Assembly (NCBI RefSeq): GCF_004217315.1
Contig: NZ_SGWR01000001.1
Coordinates: forward strand, 1,240,001-1,304,000
Length of the DNA: 64,000 nt
Source of the DNA: Corticibacter populi
GTDB taxonomy: Bacteria; Pseudomonadota; Gammaproteobacteria; Burkholderiales; Burkholderiaceae_C
Reading direction: 5' to 3'
Below are positions 8,841-31,198 of the stretch, piece after piece. The position numbers and the translations under genes were made by a program. Under the pieces are notes generated by a model, which was not told the origin of the DNA, did not search any database, and saw nothing but the letters and a program-made list of their open reading frames with translations. Within the stretch, counting starts at the first letter, position 1, and each line of letters starts with the position of its first letter.

Positions 8841-9443
8841 ATGAGCCGCACACTGAAAACCGTCATCGTCAATGGCAGCCTGAGCCGCCCATCCCGCACG
8901 CGGGTTCTGCTCGACACGCTGCAGGAACAACTGGCCGAGGCCGTCGCACTGGACATTGAATGGGTCGAGCTGGTCGACCTGATCCCGCACATCGGCACCA
9001 CGCTCTACAAGAGTGCACTGCCCGATGAGGCCCGTCGGGCCATCGACGCCATCGAGAGCGCGGACTTCCTGATCGTGGGCACGCCGGTGTTCCGCGGCAG
9101 CCTGCCAGGCCTGCTCAAGCACCTGTTCGACCTGGTCGAACTGCAAGCGCTCGACGGCAAGCCGGTGCTGCTCGCTGCCACCGGCGGCAGCGCCCGTCAT
9201 TCGCTGGTGATCGACCACCAGTTGCGGCCGCTGTTCGGCTTCTTCCAGGCCCTGACGCTGCCGATCGGCGTCTATGGCACGCCCGAGGACATTCAGGATG
9301 GCCAGGTCTCCAGCGAGGCGCTGCGCCAGCGCATCGCCCTGACAGTGCAGCTGGCAGCCCCCGTGCTGCACGGGGTGCAGCAGCGCCTGACGGCCGCCGC
9401 GCCCCAGCGGCCCCACGTCGCGCTGGAGGTGCAGGCCGCATGA
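8841..9443 (+). CDS. msuE: NAD(P)H-dependent FMN reductase of sulfonate utilisation
   Basis: This 200-residue flavodoxin-fold protein most likely supplies FMNH2 to the downstream monooxygenases (SsuE/MsuE family). Family signs are VIVNGSLSRPSRT at the N terminus (phosphate-binding loop), VGTPVFRGSLPGLLKHLFDL near residue 80 and LLAATGGSARHS near 115. I chose ATG 8841 because homologous residues begin right there (MSRTLKTVIVNGS); an in-frame GTG-type start at 8763 would add 26 basic, non-conserved residues. Its last 4 bases overlap the next gene, starting a chain of translationally coupled genes to 13936. MsuE and SsuE cannot be told apart by eye. Confidence 0.88.
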   Translation: MSRTLKTVIVNGSLSRPSRTRVLLDTLQEQLAEAVALDIEWVELVDLIPHIGTTLYKSALPDEARRAIDAIESADFLIVGTPVFRGSLPGLLKHLFDLVELQALDGKPVLLAATGGSARHSLVIDHQLRPLFGFFQALTLPIGVYGTPEDIQDGQVSSEALRQRIALTVQLAAPVLHGVQQRLTAAAPQRPHVALEVQAA

Positions 9444-10687: not shown

Positions 10688-11922
10688 GGCACGCCGCACA
10701 CGCAACCGCCATGGCCACCTCCCTGCCCACCTGGCCGCTGCCGGCCCCCGCCTCTGCACCCGCGACCACGCCTGAGGCCAGCGCGCCGACCGATGCCGCC
10801 GTGCTGCCCGAATGGATCTTCGAGGACCCTGCCTCCCAGGCCCTGCTCAAGACCCTGCAGCAGATCGCCCCAAGCGATGCCGGCGTGCTGATCCAGGGCG
10901 AGAGCGGCGCCGACAAGGAACAGGTGGCGCGCCACCTGCACGCGCTCAGTCCGCGCCGCAACGGCCCGTTCGTCACCGTCAACTGCGGCGCGCTCTCCGA
11001 AGGCCTCATCAACGCCGAACTGTTCGGCCACGAAAGCGGCGCTTTCACCGGCGCCTTCGGCAACCTGCCCGGCCGCTTCGAGGACGCCCACCTGGGCACA
11101 CTGCTGCTTGACGAGATCGACGACCTGCCGCTGCACATGCAAAGCAAGCTCCTGCGCGTGCTGCAGGACAAAAGCGTCACGCGCCTGGGCGCGAGCCGCC
11201 GCACCCCGGTGGACGTGCGCGTACTGGCCTCCAGCAGCCGGCCGCTGGAGCAAAGCGTGGCGGCGCGGCGCTTCCGCGAGGACCTGTATTACCTGCTGGG
11301 CGTGGTCACGCTCGATGTGCTGCCGCTGCGCCAGCGCCCGGGCGACATCCTGCCACTGGCGCGGCACTTCATCGCCACCTACTGCCAGCGCCTGCACTAT
11401 GCGCCGCTGGAACTGAGCGCCGCCGCCGAGCAAAAACTGCTGGCGCACAACTGGCCCGGCAACAGCCGTGAGCTGGAAAACGTCATCCACCGCACGCTGC
11501 TGCTGACCCAGGGGCTGCGCATCGGCGCCGACGACCTGAGCATTCCCGCCACCGACGAGGCGCCCGTGACCCCGTCATCCGCCGACGAGAGCCAAGGGCA
11601 GCAAGCCGCCGTCAGCCACCTGGCGCTGGACGATGCGCTCGAGAGCCTGTGCGACCTGCATGCCGAAGGGCTGGAGCAACTCGTGCAGAACGCGCTGCTG
11701 CGCAAGGTCTGGCAGCGCAACCGCTTCAACCAGGTGCACACCGCGCGACAGCTGGGCATCAGCCGCAGCGTGGTGCGGGCGCGCCTGAACCGCCTGGGCC
11801 TGCTGGGCAACGGTTCCCCCGGCGCCCAGGACAACGTCCATGACAGCGCCAGCGTCGGCGACGTTGCCGATGCGGATTCCGGCGCATCCCTCTCCCTTCC
11901 TTCACAGGACGACCAACCATGA
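10684..11922 (+). CDS. sfnR: Sigma-54-dependent transcriptional activator (SfnR-like)
   Basis: This 412-residue protein is an AAA+ enhancer-binding protein without an N-terminal sensory domain, as in SfnR of dimethylsulfone/sulfonate regulation. It carries ESGAFTGAF near residue 118 (sigma-54 contact loop), Walker [11 protein letters not shown] near 141, the arginine-finger region [10 protein letters not shown] near 198 and a Fis-type helix-turn-helix near 345-380. Walker A is GESGADKE instead of the usual GESGTGKE, so the glycine before the catalytic lysine is Asp. I chose GTG 10684 because it overlaps the upstream stop by 4 bases, like the other joints in this operon; ATG 10711 is the alternative. 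It is embedded inside the operon it probably controls. Confidence 0.82.
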
Positions 11923-13079
11923 GCCACCACCACCCCACCCCCGAGATCTTCTGGTTTCTGCCCACCTCTGGCGACACCCGCTACCTGGGCCAGTCCGACT
12001 TTGGCCGCGCGCCCACCAACGAGTACCTGCGCAGCATCGCCACCACGAGTGAAAACCTGGGCTATGACGGCCTGCTGATCCCCACCGGCAGTTCCTGCCT
12101 GGACCCGTGGGTGGTGGCCTCCAGCCTGGTGCCCGTGACCAGCCGCATCAAGCTGCTGGTGGCCCTGCGCACCTCGCTGGGTGCGCCGGTCTCGAGCGCA
12201 CGCCAGGCCGCCTCGCTGGACCAGGCCCTGGGCGGGCGACTGCTGCTCAATGTGGTGCCCGGCGGCGACGCGACCGAACTGGCGGCCGACGGCATCTTCC
12301 TCGACCACGACGAGCGCTACGAGTATGCCGATGAGTTCCTCACCATCTGGCGCCGCTTGCTCGCGGGCGAGACGGTCAACTTCAAGGGCAAGCATTTCCA
12401 TGTCGAGAACGGCCGGAACTTCTTCCCGCCCGTGCATAAGCCTTACCCGCCGCTGTATTTCGGCGGCTCCTCCGACGCCGCCCACGAACTGGCAGCCAAG
12501 CAGGTCGATGCCTACCTGACCTGGGGCGAGCCGCCCGCCGCGGTGGCCGAGAAGTTTGCCGACATCCGTCGCCGCGCCGAAAAACACGGCCGCCAGCTCA
12601 AGCTGGGCGTGCGCCTGCACGTCATCGTGCGCGAGACCAACGAGGAGGCCTGGACCGATGCCGAACGCCTCATCAGCAAACTCACCGACGAGGACATCGC
12701 CAAGGCCCAGCAGAACTACGCCCGGATGGATTCGGTCGGCCAGGCCCGCATGGCGGCGCTGCATGGCGGCCGCCGCGACCGGCTGGAAGTCTCGCCCAAC
12801 CTGTGGGCCGGCGTCGGCCTGGTGCGCGGCGGCGCCGGCACCGCGCTGGTGGGCGATGCCGCCACCGTGGCCGAGCGCCTGCGCGAATACCAGGACGCCG
12901 GTGCCGACAGCTTCGTGCTCTCGGGCTACCCGCACCTGGAAGAATCGATCCGCTTTGCCGAGCTGGTGTTTCCGCTGCTGGGCAAGAAGGCCGTCACCGT
13001 GGCCGACCGCGCCCAGACCGGTGGCGCCTTCGACGTGCGCGGTGTGCAGGCCGAGCAACTGCAGGAGGCGGCATCATGA
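11919..13079 (+). CDS. ssuD: FMNH2-dependent alkanesulfonate monooxygenase
   Basis: This 386-residue luciferase-like monooxygenase cleaves alkanesulfonates to an aldehyde and sulfite, releasing sulfur for assimilation. From memory it is strongly collinear with E. coli Ssu[15 protein letters not shown] at the N terminus, [15 protein letters not shown] near 50, [17 protein letters not shown] near 180, [13 protein letters not shown] near 230 and [19 protein letters not shown] near 297, including the active-site Cys of TGSSC and the Arg/His of RLHVIV. Start overlaps the upstream stop (ATGA). It needs FMNH2, presumably from the msuE product. No ssuABC transporter is visible in the window. Confidence 0.93.

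Positions 13080-15617: not shown

Positions 15618-15621
<4 letters not shown>
15286..15621 (+). CDS. ureB: Urease beta subunit
   Basis: This 111-residue protein is the urease beta subunit. It begins [20 protein letters not shown], the canonical N terminus, which is why ATG 15286 (with a ccagga ribosome binding site) is preferred to an upstream GTG at 15250 that would add 12 residues. Other family blocks are [14 protein letters not shown] near 37 and [17 protein letters not shown] near 70, and [10 protein letters not shown] near 92. The stop overlaps the ureC start by 4 bases, so translation of the two structural subunits is coupled. Confidence 0.95.
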
Positions 15622-17333
<1,712 letters not shown>

Positions 17334-17352
17334 CAATCCGATCGAGCCATTT

Positions 17353-17931
17353 ATGAGCCAAAGTGATTCCTTAAGTGATTCCTTGCCTGTTTTCACCAAA
17401 CGCCTGCGCATTGCCAAGGCTGCTGCCCACGCCTTGAAAGCCACGGCCACGGCATCGCTGCCGCTGGAGATGCGCATCAAAAGCCGTGCGCGCATTGCGC
17501 TCGATGGCGGCGGCGAAGCGGGCTTTACCCTCAATCGGGGTGAAATTCTGCGCGATGGTGATTTCATCGCCACCGATGACAGCCGCCAGATTCTGCGCAT
17601 CGTTGCCGCACCGGAAGCTGTCTCCACCGTGCGCTGTGCCGATGCGCTGCTGCTGACTCGCTGCGCCTACCACCTGGGCAACCGCCACGTCCCGCTGCAA
17701 ATCGGCGAGGGCTTTGTGCGCTACCAGCACGACCATGTGCTCGACGACATGGTGCGCCAGATGGGGCTGGAAGTCGTGGCCGAAGAAGCACCATTCGAAC
17801 CCGAAGCCGGTGCCTACCAGTCTTCGCCCCACAGCCATGGACCTGGCCATGGGCACGGGCATTCGGACACCCACGACCACGGTCACGGCCATGAGCACGG
17901 CCATGGGCACGGCGAGTGCCATCATCATTGA
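17353..17931 (+). CDS. ureE: Urease accessory protein UreE (nickel metallochaperone)
   Basis: This 192-residue nickel chaperone hands Ni to the UreG/UreF/UreD complex. The N-terminal domain (residues 35-75) and the metal-binding C-terminal domain ([18 protein letters not shown] near 100, [15 protein letters not shown] near 122) are both present. The last 35 residues are extremely His-rich ([20 protein letters not shown] and on to a final HHH), a nickel-storage tail found in some but not all UreE proteins. The N terminus contains a small duplicated SDSLSDSL segment. It lies 19 bases after ureC. Confidence 0.95.
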
Positions 17932-17982
17932 CATCGCAACACCCGACACCCATTGAATCCACGCCACCCGGAGTCTTTTCCC

Positions 17983-18543
17983 ATGAAACGCCTTGCCCAA
18001 CTGCTCGTCCCCGCCACGCTGGCCCTGCTTGCCGCCCCCGTATTGGCCCACAGCGGCCATGACCACCACCACGCCCTGCAGGACGGCCTGCTGCACCCCG
18101 CCACCGGGCTGGACCACCTGCTGATGCTGCTGGGCACCGGCATCCTCGCGGCCCTCAGCGGCCGGCGCCTCGCGCTGCCGCTGGCCACCCTCGCCGCCAT
18201 GCTGGTCGGTGCCATCGCCGGCCGCCAACTGGGCGCCTTCATCGGCATGGAAACCCTCATTGCCGGCTCGCTCGTGGTCGCCGGCATTGCCCTGCTGCTG
18301 CCGCGCCGCCAAAGCGTGCTCGCCGCCTTGATGCCGCTGCTGGCGCTGGCGCACGGCTGGGCCCATGGCGTCGAGGCCGCGCCTGCCGGCTTCTGGCCAT
18401 TCACCCTCGGTTTCGTCGCCGCCAGTGCCGCGCTGCTGGCGGCCGGCTATGGCGCCGGCCTGCTGCTGCGCCGCCACCAGCGCGTGCGCCAGTTCGCCGG
18501 CGGCGGCCTGCTCGCCTTCGCCGCGGCCGCGCTGGCCGGATGA
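17983..18543 (+). CDS. ureJ: HupE/UreJ family membrane protein, probable nickel permease
   Basis: This protein of about 186 residues is a HupE/UreJ-type secondary transporter thought to bring in nickel for urease (or hydrogenase). It has a signal-like first helix (MKRLAQLLVPATLALLAAPV, ending VLAHSGHDHHH), the family motif HPATGLDHLLMLLGTG near residue 40 and about six further hydrophobic segments. The ATG at 17983 has a good cccggag ribosome binding site; an upstream in-frame TTG at 17953 is less likely. It sits between ureE and ureF, 30 bases before ureF, strongly suggesting a nickel role for this operon rather than a hydrogenase role. Confidence 0.88.
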   Translation: MKRLAQLLVPATLALLAAPVLAHSGHDHHHALQDGLLHPATGLDHLLMLLGTGILAALSGRRLALPLATLAAMLVGAIAGRQLGAFIGMETLIAGSLVVAGIALLLPRRQSVLAALMPLLALAHGWAHGVEAAPAGFWPFTLGFVAASAALLAAGYGAGLLLRRHQRVRQFAGGGLLAFAAAALAG

Positions 18544-18573
18544 ACGCCCTTCGGTCCCTTTCGTCCCGATACG

Positions 18574-19251
18574 ATGACAGTCCCGTCCCTGCACCAATTG
18601 CGCATGCTGCAACTGGCCAGCGCCACGCTGCCGGTGGGTGGCTTCACCTATTCGCAGGGCTTGGAGTGGGCCGTCGAAGCCGGCTGGGTCGATGATGAAG
18701 CCAGCTTCCGGCAGTGGCAGTACGAGCAGATCCACGAAACCCTCGCGCACCTGGACTGGCCGGTGCTGCAGCGCCTGTACCAGGCCTGCGCAACCGGTGC
18801 CGCCGAGGACTTTGCGCGCTGGGGCGAATTCCTGCTGGCCAATCGCGAGACGCAGGAGCTGCGCACCGAGGAACGCCAGCGTGGCGCCGCCTTGGCCCGC
18901 ATGCTGGACGGCTGGCAGCTGTGCCAGGCGCCGGCCTGGCGTAGCGCCGCCGCGCTCACGCAGGCCAGCGGCATGGCCTGGCTGGGCTGGCACTGGCAGA
19001 TGCCGCCGCGCGAACTGGCGCTGGCCTATGGCTTTGGCTGGCTAGAAGGCGCCGTGATGGCCGGCGTCAAGCTCGTGCCCTTCGGCCAGCAGGCCGCCCA
19101 GACCCTGCTGGCCGAGCTCAGCGCCACCCTTGCCGAGGCGCTGGAAGCCGCGCTCGCGCTGGGTGACGACGAACTCGGTGGCGGCCTGCCGCTGGTGGCC
19201 ATCGCCTCGGCACGGCACGAAACCCAGTACACGCGGCTGTTCCGCTCCTGA
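18574..19251 (+). CDS. ureF: Urease accessory protein UreF
   Basis: This 225-residue all-helical protein is the UreF component of the urease activation complex and regulates the GTPase UreG. Family blocks are QLASATLPVGGFTYSQGLEW near residues 10-30, EWAVEAGWVDDEASF, and near the C terminus VKLVPFGQQAAQTLLAEL followed by PLVAIASARHETQYTRLFRS, typical of the UreF end. Length matches the family. It is 30 bases after ureJ and 51 bases before ureG. Confidence 0.95.
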   Translation: MTVPSLHQLRMLQLASATLPVGGFTYSQGLEWAVEAGWVDDEASFRQWQYEQIHETLAHLDWPVLQRLYQACATGAAEDFARWGEFLLANRETQELRTEERQRGAALARMLDGWQLCQAPAWRSAAALTQASGMAWLGWHWQMPPRELALAYGFGWLEGAVMAGVKLVPFGQQAAQTLLAELSATLAEALEAALALGDDELGGGLPLVAIASARHETQYTRLFRS

Positions 19252-20038: not shown

Positions 20039-20791
20039 TCATGGCCCGTCGTTTCTCGGATGCGGCGCCAGGTTGCTCAGGGCCTCTTTGTCGAGAATGC
20101 GCAGATTACCCTTGCAGTGGGTGATGTATCCCTTGCTACGCCATTTGGCCAGAATGCGGCTGAAGGTTTCCGCACGAATGCCCAGCTTGACGGCAATTTG
20201 CGTGCGCGAGAGCGGCAGGCGCAAGCGCTGTGGCGTCTGCCACTGCGCGTGCTGAAGAATGTAGTCAGCCACGCGCTCTTCGGCAGAACTGGACGTCAGC
20301 CAGTCGATCTGATTGGCTTGGTGGGCCACCAGGCGTGAGGCGTGCTCCAGCATCCGGTAGCACACCTGGCTATTGCCGGCGCACAAGCTGCGCATCGCCT
20401 CGCCTTCCACCAACACGCCCATTCCGTCGGTGGCGGCCCGCACTTCCATCAGGTGACGGCCATTGGGGGTGAACAAGGCCAACAGCGAAACCATATTGCC
20501 CTGATGGGCTTGGCTGAAAACTTTTTCCTCCCCATCGTCGGTCAGACGGACGCGGTTGACCACTCCGGAGCCGATCAGCAGGATATCGTCGACCTGCTGA
20601 CCATTGGAAAAAATCGCCTGTCCTTGATGAAAATCAATGACTTGACAGTGTGCAGCCAAAGCGTCCAGCTCTTGTGCCGAAGCACCGGCCAGCCATGGAT
20701 GCGTACGTAGAAGCGCCAATGCTCGCAAATGGGAATTGGAAGCAGTGACAAATGTCATTTGATATTGAGTCTTATTTTTAAAGAATGACAT
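20039..20791 (-). CDS. Crp/Fnr family transcriptional regulator
   Basis: This 250-residue protein has an N-terminal cyclic-nucleotide-binding-like domain (QGQAIFSNGQQVDDILLIGS near residue 55, EEKVFSQAHQGNMVSLLALF near 88) and a C-terminal winged helix of the Crp type (RLPLSRTQIAVKLGIRAETF near 190, then SRILAKWRSKGYI). It lacks the N-terminal cysteine cluster of oxygen-sensing FNR, so its signal is unknown. The listed ATG (20791) has no clear ribosome binding site; an in-frame ATG at 20758 (MTFVTASNS) is an alternative and would free an inverted repeat as an operator. It is divergent from the iron-chelate operon (142-base gap) and convergent with urease; regulating the former is a reasonable guess. 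Confidence 0.85.
   Translation of the reverse strand: MSFFKNKTQYQMTFVTASNSHLRALALLRTHPWLAGASAQELDALAAHCQVIDFHQGQAIFSNGQQVDDILLIGSGVVNRVRLTDDGEEKVFSQAHQGNMVSLLALFTPNGRHLMEVRAATDGMGVLVEGEAMRSLCAGNSQVCYRMLEHASRLVAHQANQIDWLTSSSAEERVADYILQHAQWQTPQRLRLPLSRTQIAVKLGIRAETFSRILAKWRSKGYITHCKGNLRILDKEALSNLAPHPRNDGP
20751..20791. promoter_or_regulatory. AT-rich control region with inverted repeat and weak Fur-box-like site
   Basis: AATGTCATT at 20751-20759 and AATGACATT at 20784-20792 are exact inverted repeats around an AT-rich core, overlapping the 5' end of the Crp/Fnr gene. Within the core, TGATATTGAGTCTTA (about 20760-20774) matches roughly 10 of 14 positions of the TGATAATnATTATCA Fur consensus. 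Fur control of the adjacent TonB operon would be expected, but the match is weak. Confidence 0.3.
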
Positions 20792-20932
20792 TCTAGCGTC
20801 GCATCAGAAAGCCAGGCACCGGTGCGAGGTAGAGCCCGGTTTTCCCTGGCAAGGCTGCCGCTGGCGGCAGCGCATGCCGACGCTCATGGCCTTCCGTTTG
20901 TTTTGCTGGACTGTTTTTCTTCTCACCACACC

Positions 20933-23134
20933 ATGCCACCGTTGTTCCGCCACACCCTCATCGCCTTCACCACAGCCAGCATTTGGCCTGCCGTACAGGC
21001 GCAAACGTCCCTTCCCGCTGCGGCCTCCGGCCATGCGGCCATCGAGTTGCCCGAAATCGTGGTGACGGCACAGGAGCCCGGTGCCACCGACGATGTGCCG
21101 GGCTATGTGGCCAGGAAAAGCACCGCCGGCTCCAAGACCGATGCATCGCTGCTGGAGATTCCGCAAACCATCAATGTCATCACCGCGCAGGAAATCGCCG
21201 AACGCGGCAATGCCCGCCTGTCGGAGACCTTGCGCTACACGCCCGGCGTGGTGACCGAAGTGCAAACCAGCAGCAGCTACTTCGACCGGCTGCGCATCCG
21301 TGGCTTCTACAGCATCAACAACATCTACCTGAACAACATGCAGATGAGCGGCACCGGCACACTGGCGGTGGCTCAGGTCGATCCCACGCACCTCTCGCGC
21401 GTTGAAGTCATCAAGGGCCCCGCCTCGGCGCTTTACGGACAGACCGGTACCGGCGGCCTGGTGGACATGCAGCTCAAGCGCCCGCAGGCAGAGGCGCCGC
21501 ACCGCATTGGCCTGGGACTGGGCAACAAGGGACAGCGGGAGCTGAACCTTGACTGGGGCGGGCAACTGGCGGGGCAGGACACACTGCTGTTCCGGGTGAC
21601 CGGCGTGGCGCGGCGCTCCGAGATGGATGCCGCATCCGTGACTCCCAAGCGCTATTCGGTGGTGCCCTCCGTGCTGTGGGCACCCAATGGCGTCACGAAG
21701 GTGTATAGCTACGTCGGCCTGCAGCGGGACGAGGGTGGCAGCTCCGCATCCTACCTGCCATTGGTCGGCACCCTCAAGCCATCGCCATGGGGCTACCTCT
21801 CGCGCGACTTCCAGGCCGGGGATCCCTCGGTCAATGACTTCACGCGCCGCCAGGCATTCGCCGGCACGGAGCTCACCCACGACCTGAACGATCAACTGCA
21901 GTACCAAGGCAACTTCCGCTACGCCTGGGTCGATGCGGACGTCGATTTCCTCTCCCCCGGCGCTTTCACGGGCGCCAGTCAAACGGTTTCCAGAACGTTC
22001 TATCAGCAAGCGGCGACGTCGCGCGCGGCCAGCGCCGACAACCATCTGCGCTACCGCTTTGGCACTGGTCTCGTCCGCCATGAAGTGGTGGCGGGCCTCG
22101 ATTGGCGCCGCTTCAGTTCGGACAACCAGACCTCCACCGCCGCCACCAGTCCTGTCTTCAATCTGTTCGCCCCGACCTACGGCAAGCTGACGCTGGGCAC
22201 GCTGGCATTGCGCACCAACAGCAGCAGTACGCTGACACAAACCGGCATTTATGTGCAGGACCAGGCCAGCATAGGCCCGTGGCGTATCATGGCAGGCCTG
22301 CGGCGCGACTGGTCGCGCTCAAGCACCGACAACCTGGTCACCGGGGCCAGCACCACCCAGAAAGACATCGCCACCTCGGGACGCGTTGGCCTGACCTACC
22401 TGATGGATGGCGGCGTGGCCCCGTACGTGAGCTACTCGCGCTCGTTCGAGCCGGCCTCTGGCACGGACTACTTCGGCACGGCATTCAAACCCACGGTGGG
22501 CACACAATGGGAAGTGGGCGTGAAGTACGCCCCCACGCAGTGGCGCGGCTTCCTGACGGCGTCGGTGTATGACCTCAAACGCAGCAACGTCAGCACCTCG
22601 GACCTGGATCACACCTGCGATGCGGCACCCCAACTGGCCGACTGCGGCAGCTATTCGGTCCAGTCCGGGGAGGTCAGCGTCAAGGGCCTGGAGCTCGAAG
22701 GCAAGGTCGACCTGAACAGGAACTGGTCCGCCACGGCCGGGTATGCCTGGATGAAGGCGCGCTACAGCCGGGACAACGCCGGTCTGCAGGGCAAAACACC
22801 CAGCAACACCCCCAGCCAGATGGCATCGCTCTGGTTGAGCCACCGCTGGAACAGTGGCGCACTGGCCGGGCTTTCTGCCTCTGCCGGTGTGCGCCGGGTG
22901 GGCGCCATGTGGGCAGAGGACGCCAACACCAACCGCATTCCGGCCTATGCCCTGTGGGATGCCATGTTCTCCTACGACCTGGGCGCCGCCTCATCCTCCA
23001 TGCGGGGCTGGAATGTGCGCCTCAACATCAGCAACCTTGCCGACAAGCAGGCCGTTGGCGGCTGCTGGAGCGCCAATTACTGCGATTATGTCCAGGGCCG
23101 CCGCGTCAGCGCGAGCGTGAACATGGAGTTCTGA
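20933..23134 (+). CDS. TonB-dependent siderophore receptor
   Basis: This 733-residue outer-membrane receptor imports an iron chelate using TonB energy. A signal peptide (MPPLFRHTLIAFTTASIWPA, cleaved after VQA) is followed by a TonB-box-like ELPEIVVTA near residue 43, the plug domain (SLLEIPQTINVITAQEI near 75, LSETLRYTPGVVTE near 98, RIRGFYSINNIYLNN near 120, VEVIKGPASALYGQTGTGG near 158) and a beta barrel ending in the aromatic-last strand (VSASVNMEF). I chose ATG 20933 because the signal peptide starts there. An extracellular-type loop carries a Cys pair (DHTCDAAPQLADCG near 560). It overlaps the ABC ATPase gene by one base. The ligand cannot be read from sequence; the plug resembles hydroxamate/catecholate siderophore receptors. 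Confidence 0.9.
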   Translation: MPPLFRHTLIAFTTASIWPAVQAQTSLPAAASGHAAIELPEIVVTAQEPGATDDVPGYVARKSTAGSKTDASLLEIPQTINVITAQEIAERGNARLSETLRYTPGVVTEVQTSSSYFDRLRIRGFYSINNIYLNNMQMSGTGTLAVAQVDPTHLSRVEVIKGPASALYGQTGTGGLVDMQLKRPQAEAPHRIGLGLGNKGQRELNLDWGGQLAGQDTLLFRVTGVARRSEMDAASVTPKRYSVVPSVLWAPNGVTKVYSYVGLQRDEGGSSASYLPLVGTLKPSPWGYLSRDFQAGDPSVNDFTRRQAFAGTELTHDLNDQLQYQGNFRYAWVDADVDFLSPGAFTGASQTVSRTFYQQAATSRAASADNHLRYRFGTGLVRHEVVAGLDWRRFSSDNQTSTAATSPVFNLFAPTYGKLTLGTLALRTNSSSTLTQTGIYVQDQASIGPWRIMAGLRRDWSRSSTDNLVTGASTTQKDIATSGRVGLTYLMDGGVAPYVSYSRSFEPASGTDYFGTAFKPTVGTQWEVGVKYAPTQWRGFLTASVYDLKRSNVSTSDLDHTCDAAPQLADCGSYSVQSGEVSVKGLELEGKVDLNRNWSATAGYAWMKARYSRDNAGLQGKTPSNTPSQMASLWLSHRWNSGALAGLSASAGVRRVGAMWAEDANTNRIPAYALWDAMFSYDLGAASSSMRGWNVRLNISNLADKQAVGGCWSANYCDYVQGRRVSASVNMEF

Positions 23135-23988
23135 TGCCGGCCCACTCGCCCCTGCCCGAGCGCGGGACCGCCGCCGCCGCACTCGAAGTCCAGGACCTGC
23201 ACGTCGCCTACCACCATCGCCTCGTGCTGGAGCGGCTGCATGCCCGGATTCCAGCCGGGCAGATCACGGTGCTGATCGGGCCGAATGGCTCGGGCAAATC
23301 CACGTTGCTCAAAGCGCTGGCGCGCCTGTTGCCATCGGTCAGCGGGCAGATTCTGCTCGAAGGCCAAAGACTGGATGCCTTCTCGCGCAAGGCCCTGGCG
23401 CGCCAGCTCTCGCTGCTGCCGCAGGGGGCTGTCGTGCCCGAAGGCGCCACCGTCGCGGAACTGGTCGCCCATGGCCGCTTTCCGCACCGCCGCCTGCTGC
23501 GCAAACCCAGCCCGGCAGACCAGGCTGCCATCGCGCAGGCCATTGCCGTCACCGGCCTGCAAGACTGGCGCGACACGCCCGTGGAAGAGCTCTCGGGCGG
23601 CCAGCGCCAGCGCGTCTGGGTGGCCATGACGGTGGCGCAGGACAGCCCGGTCATGCTGCTGGACGAACCCACGACCTACCTCGACATCAACTACCAGATG
23701 GAGCTGCTGGCACTGCTGCAGCAACTCAATCGCCAGTGGCAGAGAACCCTGGTGCTGGTCCTGCACGACATCAATCTGGCCGCACGCGTCGCCGACCACA
23801 TGATCGCCCTCAAGGACGGCGCCATCGTCGCGCAAGGAGCGCCCGAACACGTGGTGACCGCGCCCATGCTGCGGCAGATCTTCGGCATCGAAGCCCAGCT
23901 GTTCACCGATCCCGGCACCGGCAAACCGTGGTTCATCCCCTGCGCCAGCACGCCGCAGCCCGGCACCACCGCCAGCCCACAGGCCTGA
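23134..23988 (+). CDS. Iron-siderophore ABC transporter, ATP-binding protein (FecE/FhuC type)
   Basis: This 284-residue ATPase powers inner-membrane uptake of an iron chelate. Walker A is GPNGSGKSTLLKAL near residue 50, the Q-loop follows at SLLPQGAVVPEG near 95, the signature is LSGGQRQRVW near 153 and Walker B LLDEPTTYLDINYQ near 173, with the FhuC/FecE-type YLDI and HDINLAARVADH (switch His) near 208. The start ATG shares its A with the TGA stop of the receptor gene, so translation is coupled. It is followed one base after its stop by the binding-protein gene. Confidence 0.93.
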   Translation: MPAHSPLPERGTAAAALEVQDLHVAYHHRLVLERLHARIPAGQITVLIGPNGSGKSTLLKALARLLPSVSGQILLEGQRLDAFSRKALARQLSLLPQGAVVPEGATVAELVAHGRFPHRRLLRKPSPADQAAIAQAIAVTGLQDWRDTPVEELSGGQRQRVWVAMTVAQDSPVMLLDEPTTYLDINYQMELLALLQQLNRQWQRTLVLVLHDINLAARVADHMIALKDGAIVAQGAPEHVVTAPMLRQIFGIEAQLFTDPGTGKPWFIPCASTPQPGTTASPQA

Positions 23989-23989
23989 C

Positions 23990-24952
23990 ATGCTCAACAC
24001 CCCCCACACCCGCCGGCGCATCCAGGCCGCGACGCTGTGCTGGCTTGGCACGCTGACGCTGCGCCTGGCCGTTGCGCAATCGCCCATCTGCCAGGACGAC
24101 GCATTCGGGCGAACCTGCCTGGCCGCCCCGGCGCAGCGCGTGGCCGCGCTGGAAAACCGGCACATCGAGAACCTGCTGGCCGTCGGCCTGCAGCCCATTG
24201 CCGTCAGCGGCAAGGCCGCCTACGCCCGGGCCTACGCCGCCATCTCGCCCACGCTGGGGGCCGAGGTAGTGGATCTCGGCCTGGCCGCCAACCCGAACCT
24301 GGAGCGCATGCTGACCCTGCAGCCCGATCTGATCGTCGGCAACGCCCGCACCGTGCAGAAGTATCACGCCGTGCTGCGCACGATCGCACCGGTGCTGGCC
24401 TTCGAGGTCTACCCCGCCGAAGGCGGCTCCCAGTTCGACAACATGGTGGACATGTTCAAGGCGGATGCGCTGGCGGTGGGCCGCCTGCCACAGGCGCTGG
24501 CATTCATGGCGCGTCTGGAAGCGCAGCTGCAGGACGCACGCCAGGCACTGGCCCAGGCAGGCTGGGGCGGGCAGACCGTGGTGCTGGCCAACATCAATGC
24601 CGGCATTACCGGCGCCGATGTCATGCTGTTCAACAGCAACTCCACGCCAGCCGAGCTGCTGCGCCGCATGGGCCTGCAGTATGGCTATGACGATGCGCGC
24701 CACCGCCAGAAGGCCTTCAACGTCACCACGGTCGAAGCCCTGGTGCCGCTGCAGCATGTGCATCTGCTGTACATGCCATTCAATGCCGCGGGGGTGGACA
24801 AGCTGATGCAGTCCTCCGTGTGGCGCAGGCTCGACTTCGTCGAGCAGAGCCATGTGCATGCCCTGCCCTACCGGCAGATGTATGCAGGACCGATGACGGC
24901 GCAGGCGTTCATTGAAGACGTGCTGGCGGTATTGCTGCGGGAGCCACGATGA
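23990..24952 (+). CDS. Iron-siderophore ABC transporter, periplasmic binding protein
   Basis: This 320-residue protein is a helical-backbone metal-chelate binding protein (FecB/FhuD, peripla_BP_2 family). An N-terminal signal region (RRRIQAATLCWLGTLTLRLAVA) is followed by PAQRVAALENRHIENLLAVG near residue 40, the typical first strand and helix, then LTLQPDLIVGNAR near 108 and TIAPVLAFEVYP near 130. There is no lipobox immediately after the hydrophobic stretch, so it is probably a soluble periplasmic protein. The stop overlaps the start of the permease by 4 bases. Confidence 0.9.
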   Translation: MLNTPHTRRRIQAATLCWLGTLTLRLAVAQSPICQDDAFGRTCLAAPAQRVAALENRHIENLLAVGLQPIAVSGKAAYARAYAAISPTLGAEVVDLGLAANPNLERMLTLQPDLIVGNARTVQKYHAVLRTIAPVLAFEVYPAEGGSQFDNMVDMFKADALAVGRLPQALAFMARLEAQLQDARQALAQAGWGGQTVVLANINAGITGADVMLFNSNSTPAELLRRMGLQYGYDDARHRQKAFNVTTVEALVPLQHVHLLYMPFNAAGVDKLMQSSVWRRLDFVEQSHVHALPYRQMYAGPMTAQAFIEDVLAVLLREPR

Positions 24953-27069
24953 ACATGGCACCCCACCTTGCCGGCGGCAATGGCAATGGAAACGGCCGTG
25001 GCGCCGCCGCGAGCCACGACACGGCTGCGTCGAACGCTGCAACACGGCATGAATGGCTGGTCGTGGGCGCCTGCGCGATCGCGCTGGTGCTGGTGGCGCT
25101 GCTCAACCTCATGCAGGGCGAAGCGCCCATTGCCCTGCCACGCCTGCTCTCGGCGCTGTGGCAGGGCAGCTCCGAGCCGGTAGTGCGCGAAGTGCTGCTG
25201 CAGTTCCGTCTGCCCAGAGTCGCCGCGGGCCTGCTGAGCGCCAGCGCGCTGGCCATCTGCGGCGCGCTGCTGCAGACCATGCTGCGCAACCCCATGCTGT
25301 CGCCCAGCATCCTCGGCATCAGCGCGGGCAGCCACCTCACGGTCGTGATCGCGACCTTGCTGGCACCCGCCGCACTGCACCATTGGCCGGTGCCCATCAC
25401 CATGGCAGGCGGCCTGCTGGCGGTGGCCATGGTCTACGCCCTTGCGGGGGCGCACCGCGCCACGCCCTTGCGGGTTGTGCTGGCGGGCCTGATCGTCTCG
25501 ATGAGCCTGGGCTCGTTCGCGGCGATGCTGCAGATCCTGTATGAAAACGAAACCCGCTATGTGCTCAGCTGGGGCGCCGGCATGCTGCGACAGAACAACT
25601 GGCAGGCCATCCAGCAAACGGCGCTGCCGATGGTTGCGGCCATGGCCGTCACCATGGCGCTGGCACGGCAGTACGACATTGCCCGCATGGGGCGGGACAT
25701 GGCGCAGGCACTCGGGCAGCATGTCGTGGCGGTGACGGTGACATCGCTGATCATGGTGCTGGTGCTGACGGGATCCGCCGTCGCCATCACCGGCCCGATC
25801 GGCTTCATTGGCCTGATCGCGCCGCACCTGGCCCGCCTGCTCGGGGTGCGCCGCCATATCGCGCTGTTGCCCGCCAGCGCCATGATCGGCGCCGCGCTGC
25901 TGCTGGGCGCCGACAGCCTGACCTATCTTTTTGGCAACGTCACCGCAGCGCCACCAGTCGGTGCCGTCACGGCCATCCTCGGTGCGCCATGCCTGCTGTG
26001 GTTGATACTGAATAGCCGCGCAGGCCGCGGCATGGCTGCCGCCGGGGCCACACCATTTGGCATGCGCCGGGCCGTGCAGATCCCTTTGCCGGCGCTCTTG
26101 TCGGTCCTGGGCCTGGCCTTGCTGCTGGCCATGCTGGCGTCGCTGCGGCTCGATGGCAACGGCCAGCGCCTGGACTTTGACGCGCTGTGGCGGGCATTCG
26201 CCGGCACCGGCGACTGGCTGCAGCAGCACATCGTCTGGCAACTGCGCATGCCGCGCTTGTTGCTGGCAGCCACCGCCGGCGCCAGCCTCGCCATCGCAGG
26301 CCTGCTGATGCAGGCCGCCGTGCGCAACCCTCTGGCCGATACCTCGCTGCTGGGAATCAATGCCGGTGCCTCGGCGGGGGTGCTGACAATGCTGGTGCTG
26401 TGGCCCACGGTGCGGTCGGCCGGCCTGATCATGGGCGCCAGCCTCGCCGGGGCATGGCTGGTCACCGCCATCGTCTTCGTACTGGCGGCACGGCGCCGGT
26501 TTGCACCCACGACCCTGATCCTCATTGGTGTGGCGGTCTCGGCCATGGCCTCCGCCTGGGTGCAGACACTGGTTCTGCACAACCGGTTCACCGACTCTCC
26601 CCTGGTATGGCTGGTTGGCGGCCTGTATGCGCGCGACTGGCAATCCGTATGGCTGCTGGCACCGGCGCTGCTCGCAATCGGCCTGGCGGCGTGGCTGCTC
26701 GGCCCCGCGCTCGACACCCTGGCGCTGGGCGACCATGGCGCCCAGGGCGTCGGGCTGGCCGTGGTGCCGACGCGCTCTGCCGCCGTGGCGCTGAGCGCCA
26801 TCCTCGCGGCTTTGTGCGTGGCGCAAACCGGGCCCATCGGCTACGTCGGATTGCTGGCTCCGCACATGGCGCGGCTGCTGGTGGGCCAGGCCACCCGCGC
26901 ACTGGTTCCCACCGCCGCACTTCTGGGGGCCTTGCTGCTGGTGCTTGCGGACTGGCTGGCGCGCTTGATGGCGCAGCCTGCCGAGCTGCCCGCCGGTGCC
27001 ATCGTCGCGCTGGTGGGAACGCCCTACCTGATCTTCCTCATCTACAAAAGCCAGAAAACCACGGTATGA
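24949..27069 (+). CDS. Iron-siderophore ABC transporter, double-length permease (FhuB type)
   Basis: This 706-residue membrane protein contains two FecCD/BtuC-type permease domains in one chain, as in FhuB. Each half has about ten hydrophobic segments. Parallel motifs mark the duplication: RLPRVAAGLLSASALAICGA near 87 matches RMPRLLLAATAGASLAIAGL near 432; NPMLSPSILGISAGSHL near 115 matches NPLADTSLLGINAGASAG near 460; and GPIGFIGLIAPHLARLLG near 283 matches GPIGYVGLLAPHMARLLVG near 625 (ATPase-coupling helices). Because it is a fused dimer, one gene supplies the whole channel, consistent with only one permease gene here. It overlaps both neighbours by 4 bases. Confidence 0.93.
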   Translation: MNMAPHLAGGNGNGNGRGAAASHDTAASNAATRHEWLVVGACAIALVLVALLNLMQGEAPIALPRLLSALWQGSSEPVVREVLLQFRLPRVAAGLLSASALAICGALLQTMLRNPMLSPSILGISAGSHLTVVIATLLAPAALHHWPVPITMAGGLLAVAMVYALAGAHRATPLRVVLAGLIVSMSLGSFAAMLQILYENETRYVLSWGAGMLRQNNWQAIQQTALPMVAAMAVTMALARQYDIARMGRDMAQALGQHVVAVTVTSLIMVLVLTGSAVAITGPIGFIGLIAPHLARLLGVRRHIALLPASAMIGAALLLGADSLTYLFGNVTAAPPVGAVTAILGAPCLLWLILNSRAGRGMAAAGATPFGMRRAVQIPLPALLSVLGLALLLAMLASLRLDGNGQRLDFDALWRAFAGTGDWLQQHIVWQLRMPRLLLAATAGASLAIAGLLMQAAVRNPLADTSLLGINAGASAGVLTMLVLWPTVRSAGLIMGASLAGAWLVTAIVFVLAARRRFAPTTLILIGVAVSAMASAWVQTLVLHNRFTDSPLVWLVGGLYARDWQSVWLLAPALLAIGLAAWLLGPALDTLALGDHGAQGVGLAVVPTRSAAVALSAILAALCVAQTGPIGYVGLLAPHMARLLVGQATRALVPTAALLGALLLVLADWLARLMAQPAELPAGAIVALVGTPYLIFLIYKSQKTTV

Positions 27070-28406
27070 AACCACCCCGCAGACTCCATTTCAACTCCTG
27101 CATTGACTGGCTGGAGCAAGCCTGGCGCGAGCCCTGCGACCAGCCTCCGCTGCTGTTCGACCTCAGCCAGCTGACCGAACGCGCACGCCTGGCAGAACGC
27201 GGCTGCATGAATGCGCTGTTCATGGCCGACTTCTACACCTACCGCGCGGGCTTCTCGCTGGAGCCGCTGACGCTGCTCAGCGCGCTGGCTTCCGTCACCC
27301 GCCATATCGGCGTGATTGGCTCGGTCTCGACCACCTACAACCAGCCCTACGATCTGGCCCGCCTGTTCGCCTCCCTCGACCACCTGAGCGCAGGCCGTGC
27401 CGGCTGGAACATGGTGACCACCGCAGTCGGCTCGGTGGCCGCCAACTACAGCGAGCACCAGCATCTCGAGCATGATCTGCGTTATGAACGCGCCCACGAG
27501 GTCATCGAGGTCGTCACCCGGCTGTGGGACAGCTGGGACGACGATGCGCTGTGCACCGCGCAGGACCGCGCGGCAACGGGTGCGGGTGGCGGGTGGCTCG
27601 ATCCGGACAAGATCCACCCGATCGATTACCACGGGCATTGGTTCGATGTGCCAGGCCCGCTGAATCTGCCCCGCCCGCCCCAGGGCCACCCGGTACGCAT
27701 GCAGGCAGGCTCGTCACATGCCGGGCGGGATTTCGGAGCGCGCTGGGCCGAGGTGATTTTCACGGCGCAGCCACTGCTGCCCATCGCCCGGGATTTCTAC
27801 GCCGACGTCAAGCAGCGTGCCGCCCGCTTCGGCCGTGACCCTGAAGGAATTCGCATCTTGCCAGGCCTGATGCCGATCATTGCGCCCACGCGTGCGCAAG
27901 CCGAGGACATGGCCGCCGCCCGTGCCCTGCGACGCGGCCGGGGCGAGGCCCGCCTGCGCGAATTCGTGGGGGTGGACCTGAGCGTGCTGCCACCCGACGA
28001 GCCCATCCCCCTGGCACTGCTGCCCGAGGCCGGCACCACCAATGGCATGCGAGGCCGCTCCGACCTGATGCTGGACATCGTGCGGCGCTACCGCCTCACC
28101 CCCCGCCAACTGCAGGCACAGGAGGCTCACCACGGCTTCGTCGGCACCCCCGAGGAAGTCACCGACCTGATCCATGAATGGTTCGAGGCCCGCGCCTGCG
28201 ACGGCTTCACCATGATGTGGCCGTCCATCGAGTCCAACCAGCTGTTCGTGGAGCAGGTCGTGCCCGCGCTGCAGCGCCGTGGCATCCACCGCAAAGCCTA
28301 CGATGCCAGCACGCTGCGCGGCCACTTCGACCTGCCACGTCCCCTCCCTCGGCGCGACCATGCCAACGCCGCCGTCCTTCCCATCACTCCGTTCGCCAAA
28401 GCCTGA
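27066..28406 (+). CDS. NtaA/SnaA/DszA-family FMNH2-dependent monooxygenase (first copy)
   Basis: This 446-residue luciferase-like protein belongs to the nitrilotriacetate monooxygenase group. Blocks shared from memory with NtaA are LEPLTLLSALASVTRHIG near residue 60, TYNQPYDLARLFASLDHLS near 82, GRAGWNMVTTA near 105, LWDSWDDDAL near 148, FDVPGPLNLPRPPQGHPV near 193, MQAGSSHAGRDF near 213 and VVPALQRRGI near the C terminus. Such enzymes use reduced flavin to attack chelators or organosulfur and acyl substrates. Its ATG overlaps the permease stop (ATGA), so it is translationally coupled to the iron-chelate importer. A role in breaking down or releasing metal from the imported ligand is an inference; no flavin reductase is in this operon. 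Confidence 0.85.
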   Translation: MKPPRRLHFNSCIDWLEQAWREPCDQPPLLFDLSQLTERARLAERGCMNALFMADFYTYRAGFSLEPLTLLSALASVTRHIGVIGSVSTTYNQPYDLARLFASLDHLSAGRAGWNMVTTAVGSVAANYSEHQHLEHDLRYERAHEVIEVVTRLWDSWDDDALCTAQDRAATGAGGGWLDPDKIHPIDYHGHWFDVPGPLNLPRPPQGHPVRMQAGSSHAGRDFGARWAEVIFTAQPLLPIARDFYADVKQRAARFGRDPEGIRILPGLMPIIAPTRAQAEDMAAARALRRGRGEARLREFVGVDLSVLPPDEPIPLALLPEAGTTNGMRGRSDLMLDIVRRYRLTPRQLQAQEAHHGFVGTPEEVTDLIHEWFEARACDGFTMMWPSIESNQLFVEQVVPALQRRGIHRKAYDASTLRGHFDLPRPLPRRDHANAAVLPITPFAKA

Positions 28407-28416
28407 AAGCACACCG

Positions 28417-29583
28417 ATGAAACAGCTGCACTTGAACCTGGTGTGGGGCGATGCCGGCATGGGGGCCTGGCAGGCCCCCACCGCTATTTCCAGCTACACC
28501 AACGGCCCGGCGGCGTGGCGCGAACTCGCGCAAACTGCCGAGCACGCATGCCTGGATGCCATTCTTTGCACCGACCGCAACCACCTGGCCGCCACACGCA
28601 CAGGTTCGGCGCTGTTCGGTCTCGAACCCTTCACCACCTGCGCGGTCCTGGCCGCGCACACCAACCGCATCGGCTTGATTGCCACCGCAGCCACCCCGAC
28701 CGCGCAGCCCTACAACATCGCCCGTCGCCTGGCTTCGCTGGACCACATCAGCCAGGGCCGCGCCGGCTGGGACATCCGAGCGGCACTGCCAGCGGAGACC
28801 CTCGCGCAATATGGCAAGACAGTGGATCCGCAAACCTGCTGCGATCCCGCCCGCACACTCGAATTCGTGCAAGTCACCCGCCAGTTGTGGGACAGCTGGG
28901 GTGATCACGCCTTGCAATGCGACGGCACTGGACAAGCTGCGGTGGACGGCTCCCAGAACCATGCCATCGAACACCAAGGCCGGTGGTTTTCGGTGCAGGG
29001 CCCGCTGGATGTGCCACGCCCGCCGCAAGGCCAGCCGCTGCTCAGCCATGCGGTGCGGACCGCGCAGGACGAAACCCTCGCGGCCAGCCACGCCGATCTG
29101 GTGTTCGTGCGCCCAAACGATCCCGCACAGGCCGCCGTTTTTCGCCGGAAAATGCGCGCGCGCTGCGCAGCGGCAGGACGCACACCGGATTCGATTCGGG
29201 TCATGGGCGCGTTGCGATTCGTGCTGGCCTCCAGCGACGCAGCGGCAGCGGAACGCGCCAACGCACTGGCACCCTATGCCGCAGCAGCACGGCGCCCAAG
29301 CGACGCGCCGTCTGCAGATTCTCCCCTGACGTATGTGGGCACGCCCACAGGGCTCGCCGCACGCATGCAAACATGGCTGGAAGCAGAAGCGGTCGATGGC
29401 TTCAATCTGATTTGCCCATGGCTGCCCGGCGGCCTGGAACAGTTCGCCCACGAGGTCATTCCGCTGCTCCAGCAACGCGGCATCTTCCGTACGCATTACG
29501 CCAACGCCACCCTGCGCAGCCACTTCGGCCTGCCAACCCGCAGGTACGCGGCGCTACCATCGATGGCGTCGTCGACGCCGTAG
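28417..29583 (+). CDS. NtaA/SnaA/DszA-family FMNH2-dependent monooxygenase (second copy)
   Basis: This 388-residue protein is a diverged paralogue of the gene just upstream: FGLEPFTTCAVLAAHTNRIG near residue 68, PYNIARRLASLDHISQGRAG near 100, RQLWDSWGDHALQ near 155, FSVQGPLDVPRPPQGQPL near 190 and VIPLLQQRGIFRTHYA near 348. It is shorter, with a reduced middle region and LSHAVRTAQDE replacing the QAGSSxxG phosphate-binding motif, so it may have lost or changed flavin binding. It begins 10 bases after the first copy and looks cotranscribed with it. Whether the pair forms a heterodimer, as luciferase does, cannot be told. Confidence 0.8.
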   Translation: MKQLHLNLVWGDAGMGAWQAPTAISSYTNGPAAWRELAQTAEHACLDAILCTDRNHLAATRTGSALFGLEPFTTCAVLAAHTNRIGLIATAATPTAQPYNIARRLASLDHISQGRAGWDIRAALPAETLAQYGKTVDPQTCCDPARTLEFVQVTRQLWDSWGDHALQCDGTGQAAVDGSQNHAIEHQGRWFSVQGPLDVPRPPQGQPLLSHAVRTAQDETLAASHADLVFVRPNDPAQAAVFRRKMRARCAAAGRTPDSIRVMGALRFVLASSDAAAAERANALAPYAAAARRPSDAPSADSPLTYVGTPTGLAARMQTWLEAEAVDGFNLICPWLPGGLEQFAHEVIPLLQQRGIFRTHYANATLRSHFGLPTRRYAALPSMASSTP

Positions 29584-30196: not shown

Positions 30197-31198
30197 TCAC
30201 TGCCTTTGCGCCAGACGCTGCAGGTAAGGCACCAACGTCTGCACATTTGTGAACGTCATGCCATACATGCTGCTCAGGCCCTGCGCCTGCGCAGCATCGA
30301 GTTGCGCAGCGCAAATGATGAATTGCTCAGCCGGCTGGCCAATGCGTTTTTGCAGCCGGCTGAGCTTGTCGATTTCGTGGCGAAACTCCCCTGTCTTGCA
30401 TTCGATGCTCACCAGACGCTCTCCCACCAGGGCCACCGCATCCAGTTCCTGCAGGTCTTCGTTGGGAAAGACCACTTTCACGCCCCTGGCACACGAGAAA
30501 GACTGCTGGCGGTTCTGGCCAAACACGTCCAGCAGAGCATCGATGGCAAACCATTCCAGCCAGGCGCCCATGAAAAACTGGCGTGCCGGCTGCGCCGGCT
30601 GCAGGCCCAGCCGAAGGATCTTTTCATTCTTCTGATAGAAATACTTGGCAAACAGGGCCCCGCCATACCAATTGCGGCACAAGCGGGTGATGGTGGCAGC
30701 ATCCTTTTGCGCCAATCGCGCCAGTTCGATGTTCAGGCCGGAATGGCTCTTGCGATAACTCCAACCAATGCGCCCGAGAACATCGGCAAGGAGCTCATAG
30801 TGCTCGCCAATCTGACGGGCTGCCTCGTCGAAATAGCCATCCATGTTGACGTTGTCGTAGGCGAATTTCGCCAGGATGTTCCGGGCATGAAACCACGACT
30901 GCAACGGCGCATGCTGCTCTTGCGTAGGTAGAAAGGCATTGTCCAACGCAACCGGTGCATCCCCTTTCGCGGAAGCAGCTGCCGCCGACACCTCGACTTC
31001 GCCTTCCTCCTCCTGCGCCACTTTCAGGGCCTTGATCTCCCGCAGCGCCAACGCATAGCGCTGCAGCAGCTTCTCAACAAAAAACACGGTGCCATACACC
31101 GTCACAGGCTTGGCGCAACGGCCGCAGAAGGCCTGCTGTCCTTCAACGGGGAGAACCTCGGCAATGAAGCCGCAACTATTGCAACGATAAATGGACAT
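30197..31198 (-). CDS. Zinc-ribbon protein with Card1/DUF1887-like PD-(D/E)xK nuclease domain
   Basis: This 333-residue protein is not one I can name. The N terminus is a zinc ribbon (CNSC at residues 7-10, CGRC at 25-28). A Glu/Ala-rich spacer follows near 60-80, then a helical region with an aromatic segment (NWYGGALFAKYFYQ near 177-190). The C-terminal third has a nuclease-type core: FMGAWLEWF near 209, ELDAVALVGERLVSIECKTG near 250-269 giving D-x(n)-E-x-K, then a strand-helix tail. That core resembles the nuclease half of Card1/Can2-type proteins, but no CARF domain is present and no CRISPR array is in the window. It may be a standalone defence or repair nuclease. Confidence 0.6.
   Translation of the reverse strand: MSIYRCNSCGFIAEVLPVEGQQAFCGRCAKPVTVYGTVFFVEKLLQRYALALREIKALKVAQEEEGEVEVSAAAASAKGDAPVALDNAFLPTQEQHAPLQSWFHARNILAKFAYDNVNMDGYFDEAARQIGEHYELLADVLGRIGWSYRKSHSGLNIELARLAQKDAATITRLCRNWYGGALFAKYFYQKNEKILRLGLQPAQPARQFFMGAWLEWFAIDALLDVFGQNRQQSFSCARGVKVVFPNEDLQELDAVALVGERLVSIECKTGEFRHEIDKLSRLQKRIGQPAEQFIICAAQLDAAQAQGLSSMYGMTFTNVQTLVPYLQRLAQRQ

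Follow-up and report, generated by a model that had tools for sequence, protein, structure and literature searches.

We analyzed a six-gene operon in a 64,000-nucleotide stretch of the Corticibacter populi genome (contig NZ_SGWR01000001.1, positions 1,240,001 to 1,304,000; hereafter the window). We propose, with about as much confidence as doubt, that it is a xenosiderophore import operon that carries its own ligand-oxidizing enzyme, formed by two luciferase-like monooxygenases (LLMs; Bac_luciferase in Pfam) that we call LLM1 and LLM2. The operon consists of six intact open reading frames on the plus strand at 20933-29583, all with ATG starts. Pfam and NCBIfam agreed with a preliminary description of this DNA on the names of the parts, namely a TonB-dependent receptor, an ATP-binding cassette (ABC) ATPase, a binding protein, a double permease, and two flavin monooxygenases, and the frames and junctions bore out the tight unit, joined by overlaps of 1 to 4 bases or a 1-base gap, that it had described. 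In gene order, the junctions are -1, +1, -4, -4, and +10 bases: the receptor and ATPase frames overlap by 1 base, a 1-base gap separates the ATPase from the binding protein, the binding protein and permease overlap by 4 bases, the permease and LLM1 share 4 bases (ATGA, with the LLM1 start lying over the permease stop), and a 10-base gap separates LLM1 from LLM2. Siderophore importers as such are commonplace; what is unusual here is the addition of a coupled NtaA-type enzyme and its cofactor-less partner.

The first four genes have the composition of a ferric-siderophore importer, with a plug-and-barrel receptor, an ATPase, a Peripla_BP_2 binding protein, and a FecCD permease in a single operon, and the permease has the two FecCD stretches of an FhuB-type fusion within its 706 residues. 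The receptor scored 342 bits against TIGR01783 (cut-off, 223.5). Its best PDB sequence matches were chains labeled FoxA or CntO (E ~3e-125), which we take to be one protein, followed by the enantio-pyochelin receptor (4e-109) and then FhuA (6e-95). The best NCBIfam models for the receptor, binding protein, and permease were of the FhuABCD/FoxA type, and those for the ATPase were FecE first and FhuC third; in the PDB search, the binding protein was nearest to the Fe-citrate-binding YfmC, with FhuD also matched. The kinship of the receptor and permease points to a hydroxamate-like ligand, which we treat as a lead rather than a result because the FhuA, FhuB, and FhuD models all scored under their curated cut-offs (450 versus 803, 591 versus 899, and 85 versus 252 bits, respectively); the receptor was below every equivalog cut-off. 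Thus, the operon resembles FhuABCD/FoxA ferric-hydroxamate uptake in its best-matching models and in having FoxA and FhuA among the top PDB matches, but it differs in these sub-equivalog scores, in a permease that is at most ~38% identical to any of the matches listed, and in its two extra LLM genes. A receptor-ATPase-binding protein-FhuB operon of Rhizobium sp. AB2/73 is alike in gene order and overlaps (permease, 34% identity; ATPase, 41%), whereas its receptor is unrelated (20% over a short stretch), it has no LLM, and it adjoins IucA/IucC synthesis genes.

Both LLMs pass the cut-off of TIGR03860 (279.7 bits), LLM1 with 435 bits and LLM2 with 317 bits. We compared them in an alignment of 68 rows, made up of 66 frames from the window and the fetched loci, LLM1 and LLM2 included, and two PDB fragments; these rows are not a random sample. 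The 66 frames remained from 74 candidates after 6 duplicates and 2 frames cut by locus ends were dropped; one of the cut frames has both motifs intact, and the other has the WN-VT motif and ends before the rest. In the 66 other rows, 47 columns reach at least 90% conservation; LLM1 retains 45 of these and LLM2 retains 36. The LLM2 losses fall on 10 of the 11 conserved columns in the WNxVT, RYxxA, and QAGxS motifs and on 1 of 36 elsewhere (Fisher, 2e-8), a flavin-site column group that was chosen after the alignment had been viewed and in which not all columns are proven contacts.

In the homolog BdsA, flavin mononucleotide (FMN) is held by V137, S139, H156, R159, Y160, and L230, and single mutants lose activity near-completely (PMC5819316). 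With the register set by motif, LLM2 has R, A, T, D, P, and R at these positions and so differs at all six, including the V, R, and Y positions that are near-invariant in the 66 other rows, whereas LLM1 carries, at each, the residue that ranks first or second in frequency among the other rows. The insertion IS5 is a key part of the BdsA active pocket; the matching lid region is 19 residues long in LLM2 and spans 62 to 104 residues in all other rows except one that is cut by a locus end (39 residues). By eye, the WN-VT strand and the QAGxS loop are missing together in LLM2 and in no other row of the 68. Judged by these aligned residues, LLM1 keeps the FMN site and lid of an NtaA/DmoA monooxygenase, and LLM2, though a member of the family, lacks the FMN contacts and lid of a working enzyme. 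We propose that LLM2 may be a noncatalytic partner subunit that no longer needs flavin and that would form a heterodimer with LLM1. The preliminary description had noted an altered flavin-phosphate loop in the second copy, which was right and understated in that the WN-VT strand, RY motif, QAGxS loop, and lid are all altered or missing; its suggestion of a heterodimer fits such a degenerate LLM2, and its term "twin" monooxygenases does not, with the flavin site of LLM2 gone and the two proteins 30% identical.

Two other accounts of LLM2 were considered and set aside. A recent tandem duplication of LLM1 is unlikely because of this low identity and because the tree leaves LLM1 and LLM2 unpaired, although support near both is weak. 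A decaying gene is less likely, as the frame is open, codon use is operon-like (r 0.87 against the operon, compared with 0.37 and 0.33 for the shifted frames), and almost all of the losses fall within the flavin site and lid.

LLM pairs with one lidless member are known from antibiotic biosynthesis. NtfO1-NtfO2 is an LLM heterodimer (PDB 7E36) in which NtfO1 is without the lid and NtfO2 has it, and of their homologs NgnO1 and NgnO2, neither acts alone (PMC8027225). The genes described here are likewise paired, with one product lidless, and they resemble NtfO1-NtfO2 and StmO1-StmO2 in joining a lidless LLM to an NtaA-type LLM with a lid, although those systems serve antibiotic biosynthesis (PMC8027225). 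In the PDB search with LLM1, only three YtnJ entries ranked above the NtaA-type chain of 7E36; NtfO2 is without a side loop that LLM1, on our reading of the alignment, appears to keep. In score, FMN motifs, and lid, LLM1 is like NtaA, EmoA, DszA/BdsA, and YtnJ (TIGR03860), from which the present system differs by its coupling to a siderophore-type importer and by a second LLM of the degenerate form described above.

We further examined the neighborhoods of related enzymes. The LLM of a genome of the same order (G044) led to a separate NtaA-type clade (node support, 1.0), relatives of which, at 45% identity or more, occur in 19 of the 40 plasmid records listed (the best 40 of 1,069 with any match). 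Ten of the 19 plasmid neighborhoods were opened, and a FecCD importer was present in all 10 and a TonB receptor in 8; the two without a receptor are uncertain because the gene tables of the collection are incomplete. Unannotated records and misnamed genes were checked by tblastn, and several loci are near-copies of one another (Roseibium/Labrenzia and Shinella/Sinorhizobium). Across the phylum, clade relatives were found in 5 of 359 genomes (E <= 1e-85), with a TonB receptor in all five and a FecCD importer in four within ~9 kb; at L145, a receptor (29% identical to the Shinella one) was present and tblastn gave no FecCD match. For the clade overall, G044 included, 15 of 16 opened neighborhoods have a FecCD importer and 14 have a TonB receptor. 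These loci, from Shinella, Sinorhizobium, Pannonibacter, Rhizobium, Paracoccus, and Roseibium/Labrenzia, share with the present operon a FecCD importer and an NtaA-type enzyme, mostly with a TonB receptor, and differ in their split permeases, single LLM, and distinct enzyme clade. In the Shinella loci, the ATPase and clade enzyme frames overlap by 4 bases. The recurrence of the arrangement with this clade, together with the overlapping frames of the operon, supports the preliminary description in its coupling of an NtaA-type monooxygenase with an importer of the siderophore type. We note that at L117 a gene at 9861-11942 is labeled as an iron ABC transporter substrate-binding protein, yet its product is 79% identical to the Shinella TonB receptor.

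Closer relatives of LLM1 lie beside other importers. Seven loci with enzymes 44-46% identical to LLM1, six of them annotated, were opened from the 30 plasmid records listed (the best 30 of 1,119). In four of the six (L128, L139, L141, and L142), genes for a binding protein, a permease, and an ATPase stand immediately upstream of the LLM and form an ABC importer that we read from its layout as sulfonate-type, with no substrate named by the annotation. At L140, a methionine-type importer lies near the relative, as does an "iron ABC transporter permease" that belongs to a different size class; at L138, it is among sugar importers and other LLMs; and at the unannotated L127, tblastn gave no FecCD match. 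This pattern suggests joint movement of NtaA-type enzymes and the importers of their substrates, and we therefore infer that the substrate of LLM1 would be the cargo of the receptor and FhuB-type permease.

The operon was also sought as a unit in genome sets that include the source genome of the window. LLM2 was matched in that genome and in 5 of 59 others at E <= 1e-40, at no more than 40% identity and with no ortholog among them, and at one locus in the GTDB contigs (32%, Microvirga). LLM1 was found in its own genome only among 399 of the order (E <= 1e-115) and not in viral contigs. The permease had matches in its own genome and 2 of 59 others (both 35%); of 398 genomes of the phylum, its own and 36 more gave matches, none above 38% identity, and among 399 of the family it was found in its own only (E <= 1e-80); the receptor was matched in its own genome and 8 of 9 others of the genus, at best with 38% identity. 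On plasmids, LLM1, LLM2, the permease, the receptor, and the binding protein had no match of at least 60% identity. A class-wide sample gave the LLM family in 5 of 185 genomes, the source genome of the window included, which is too few for use.

Comparison of FecCD and TIGR03860 gene positions in 60 genomes revealed two further adjacent pairs. In G003, which belongs to the same genus, the gene order is NtaA-type LLM, SfnB-like flavoprotein, binding protein, two FecCD permeases, and ATPase (L108, 7076-14036), and the LLM and SfnB-like frames overlap by 4 bases if the GTG start is right. In G044, the LLM lies between entCBA-like genes and a FecCD importer (L109). The neighborhood survey that the preliminary description had called for thus found a recurring arrangement of receptor, FecCD importer, and NtaA-type enzyme and did not find the exact form with a fused permease and two LLMs elsewhere. 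As observations in their own right, L108 sets a pair of organosulfur-type enzymes next to an importer for metal chelates; a 16-kb stretch of L109 holds entC-, entB-, and SDR-type genes, the LLM, FecCD permeases, binding proteins, and a receptor; and the relatives G003 and G025 carry, within 20 kb, three LLM genes (L110) and four (L115), respectively, with the flavin strand of one LLM of L110 reading LN in place of WN and SS in place of T[ST].

In the mechanism that we propose, a ferric siderophore would enter the cytoplasm via the receptor, binding protein, ATPase, and fused permease, and its iron would then be released, probably by reduction. LLM1, supplied with reduced FMN (FMNH2) by a flavin reductase encoded elsewhere, would hydroxylate and thereby cleave the ligand using oxygen, with LLM2, no longer binding FMN, paired to it as a subunit; the msuE product (8763-9443) is one candidate source of FMNH2. 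Cleavage of the ligand would stop iron from rebinding and may free carbon, nitrogen, or sulfur. The preliminary description had the oxidation itself release the iron; by analogy, iron may instead leave before the ligand is oxidized. This order is favored because the amidase and fungal routes of desferrioxamine breakdown use the iron-free form (PMC11800396) and because a siderophore-interacting protein is annotated beside the enzyme in two Shinella loci; the esterases that free iron by breaking some siderophores count against it (PMC11800396).

The region upstream of the operon holds a Fur-box-like 19-mer at 20761-20779, overlapping a promoter-like site, with 13 of 19 matches to the Fur-box consensus GATAATGATAATCATTATC. 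This score is tied for best in the 64-kb window, and in seven other receptor/FecCD neighborhoods of the same genome the best Fur-like score reached 14 in three cases and 13 in a fourth, the remaining three staying below 13. Iron control of the operon is plausible from this site. A divergent CRP/FNR-type gene has its promoter region in common with the operon and may be linked to it.

Several findings weigh against an importer coupled to its own ligand-oxidizing enzyme. No second copy of the exact operon, with a fused permease and two LLMs, was found in any other genome searched, and conservation cannot support the link between importer and LLM because no whole-operon ortholog was found. None of 20 opened permease neighborhoods (of the 37 others, two of those opened being cut by contig ends) has an LLM. 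In 13 relatives, 2 of 75 LLMs lie within 5 kb of a FecCD gene, compared with 0.57 expected (P, 0.11), so that the adjacency survey alone proves little. No siderophore system is named in any of the six annotated LLM1-relative neighborhoods. LLM1 is only 33-36% identical to the clade found beside siderophore importers, and their joint node has a support of 0.46, an insecure placement; for these reasons, separate recruitment is likely. A flavin reductase is absent from the six genes of the operon. As to LLM2, the H156 and L230 positions vary family-wide, the S139 position is A, as in LLM2, in 5 of the 66 other rows, and third-position guanine-plus-cytosine (GC) content is slightly low (0.75, compared with 0.82-0.86). 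Finally, 31 of 2,000 composition shuffles of 20725-20932 reach a score of 13, which makes the Fur-like site modest.

These points also bear on other explanations of the six genes. The importer might carry a ferric siderophore while the LLM pair, merely downstream, acts on an unrelated organosulfur compound, a case that the preliminary description had named as refuting its own reading. This would fit the four LLM1 relatives that follow importers read as sulfonate-type on layout (their annotation being silent on substrate), the msuE/ssuD sulfur cluster at 8763-13079 in the same window, and the LLM and SfnB-like flavoprotein that adjoin a FecCD importer in G003. The LLM1 start codon overlaps the permease stop codon, however, and a second NtaA-type clade also adjoins siderophore importers, and we consider this reading unlikely. 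A sulfur-containing, thiazoline-type siderophore, oxidized by LLM1/LLM2 at or near its sulfur in DszA-like fashion, would agree with the position of the enantio-pyochelin receptor as the next PDB relative after FoxA and with possible sulfur-type kin of LLM1; with FoxA scoring higher, FhuA nearly as high, and the permease FhuB-like, it seems to us very unlikely. The pair could instead be tailoring enzymes of siderophore synthesis, with the other genes elsewhere, given that synthesis-type genes adjoin the related clade in 4 of 16 opened neighborhoods (L109, L116, L118, and L130). Yet no synthesis gene is among the operon genes or the annotated flanks, which cover part of the window, and none was seen in 9 of the 14 clade loci that were checked (the 16 minus L123 and L129): the annotated L119, L120, L124, and L125, and L143-L147 by tblastn with entC, entB, SDR, AMP-ligase, and nonribosomal peptide synthetase queries. 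No synthesis gene is seen at L117, where many genes are annotated as hypothetical. We hold this role to be improbable.

LLM1 with FMNH2 might also be the ferric reductase itself, which would make oxygenation of the ligand unnecessary. FMNH2 can reduce ferric chelates, and the operon has no other reductase; the siderophore-interacting protein annotated beside the LLM in two Shinella loci means, however, that the LLM is not needed there as a reductase, and we find this possibility decidedly improbable. The preliminary description had allowed for uptake and breakdown of an aminopolycarboxylate of the nitrilotriacetate (NTA) or ethylenediaminetetraacetate (EDTA) type, in keeping with the family membership of LLM1, and the emoA/emoB EDTA operon of Chelativorans does likewise combine an importer with an NtaA-type enzyme (PMC7312458). 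That known route differs in its binding protein, EppA, a cluster C protein that takes free EDTA, and in its flavin reductase partner, EmoB, and a TonB receptor is unmentioned in the part of the source consulted (PMC7312458). The six genes here encode neither a cluster C binding protein nor an FMN reductase partner: the importer is of the FecCD/Peripla_BP_2 kind with a siderophore receptor, and there is no EmoB-like gene in the operon. Because the receptor and permease match hydroxamate-siderophore models best and EppA is of another class and takes the free ligand (PMC7312458), an aminopolycarboxylate fits poorly, and we give it very little credence.

A broader reading, which we hold to be somewhat less likely than the import operon itself, is an oxidative branch of siderophore use, in which importers of foreign siderophores would carry their own ligand-destroying FMN monooxygenase, apparently recruited repeatedly from different NtaA-type clades and here possibly a heterodimer of an active LLM with one that lacks its cofactor site. 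The routes of iron release listed in the part of PMC11800396 consulted are reduction, coordination change, proton-assisted dissociation, and esterases, and ligand oxygenation is not among them. Among the matches listed in the open-access literature, none tied an LLM to siderophore processing, a weak absence given that most subscription journals lie outside it, and in the open-access papers examined that pair an LLM with siderophores, the enzyme is just a table entry. If the proposal is true, it would add an oxygen-dependent route by which a competitor's siderophore becomes a consumable, and LLM2, having lost no more than its flavin site and lid, would illustrate cleanly how an enzyme can become a subunit. 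The repeated presence of NtaA-type enzymes in importer loci makes the reading testable in several culturable bacteria. The features are collected in Table 1.

Table 1. The operon and its upstream region, in window positions
Feature	Position	Strand	Basis
TonB-dependent siderophore receptor, FoxA/FhuA/FetA group, 733 aa	20933..23134	+	Pfam, NCBIfam, PDB sequence search
ABC ATPase, FecE/FhuC type, 284 aa	23134..23988	+	Pfam, NCBIfam
Peripla_BP_2 binding protein, FhuD / Fe-citrate-binding YfmC type, 320 aa	23990..24952	+	Pfam, NCBIfam, PDB search
Fused double FecCD permease, FhuB type, 706 aa	24949..27069	+	Pfam, NCBIfam
LLM1, NtaA/DmoA-family FMN monooxygenase, 446 aa, FMN site and lid present	27066..28406	+	TIGR03860, alignment
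LLM2, NtaA/DmoA-family homolog, 388 aa, usual FMN contacts and lid absent	28417..29583	+	TIGR03860, alignment
CRP/FNR-type regulator gene, divergent, promoter region common with operon	20039..20791	-	Pfam, NCBIfam
Promoter-like site TTGATA-16-AAGAAT	20759..20786	+	Consensus matching only

Elsewhere in the window, the GC content has no clear step, and the idea of a recent foreign island was dropped. Among the matches listed for the nitrate genes with which the window opens, the Burkholderia and Paraburkholderia records reach 79% identity at most. The product of a minus-strand gene at 30197-31198 gave a weak match to a Card1-like endonuclease (PF09002, 25.9 bits) that just missed the cut-off of 26.4. 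The msuE/ssuD sulfur cluster is a run of overlapping plus-strand genes for an msuE-type FMN reductase, a DszC/SfnB-like flavoprotein, a sigma-54 activator-type protein, and an alkanesulfonate monooxygenase, and the urease genes ureC, ureE, and ureF lie upstream of the operon at 15618-19251, also on the plus strand.

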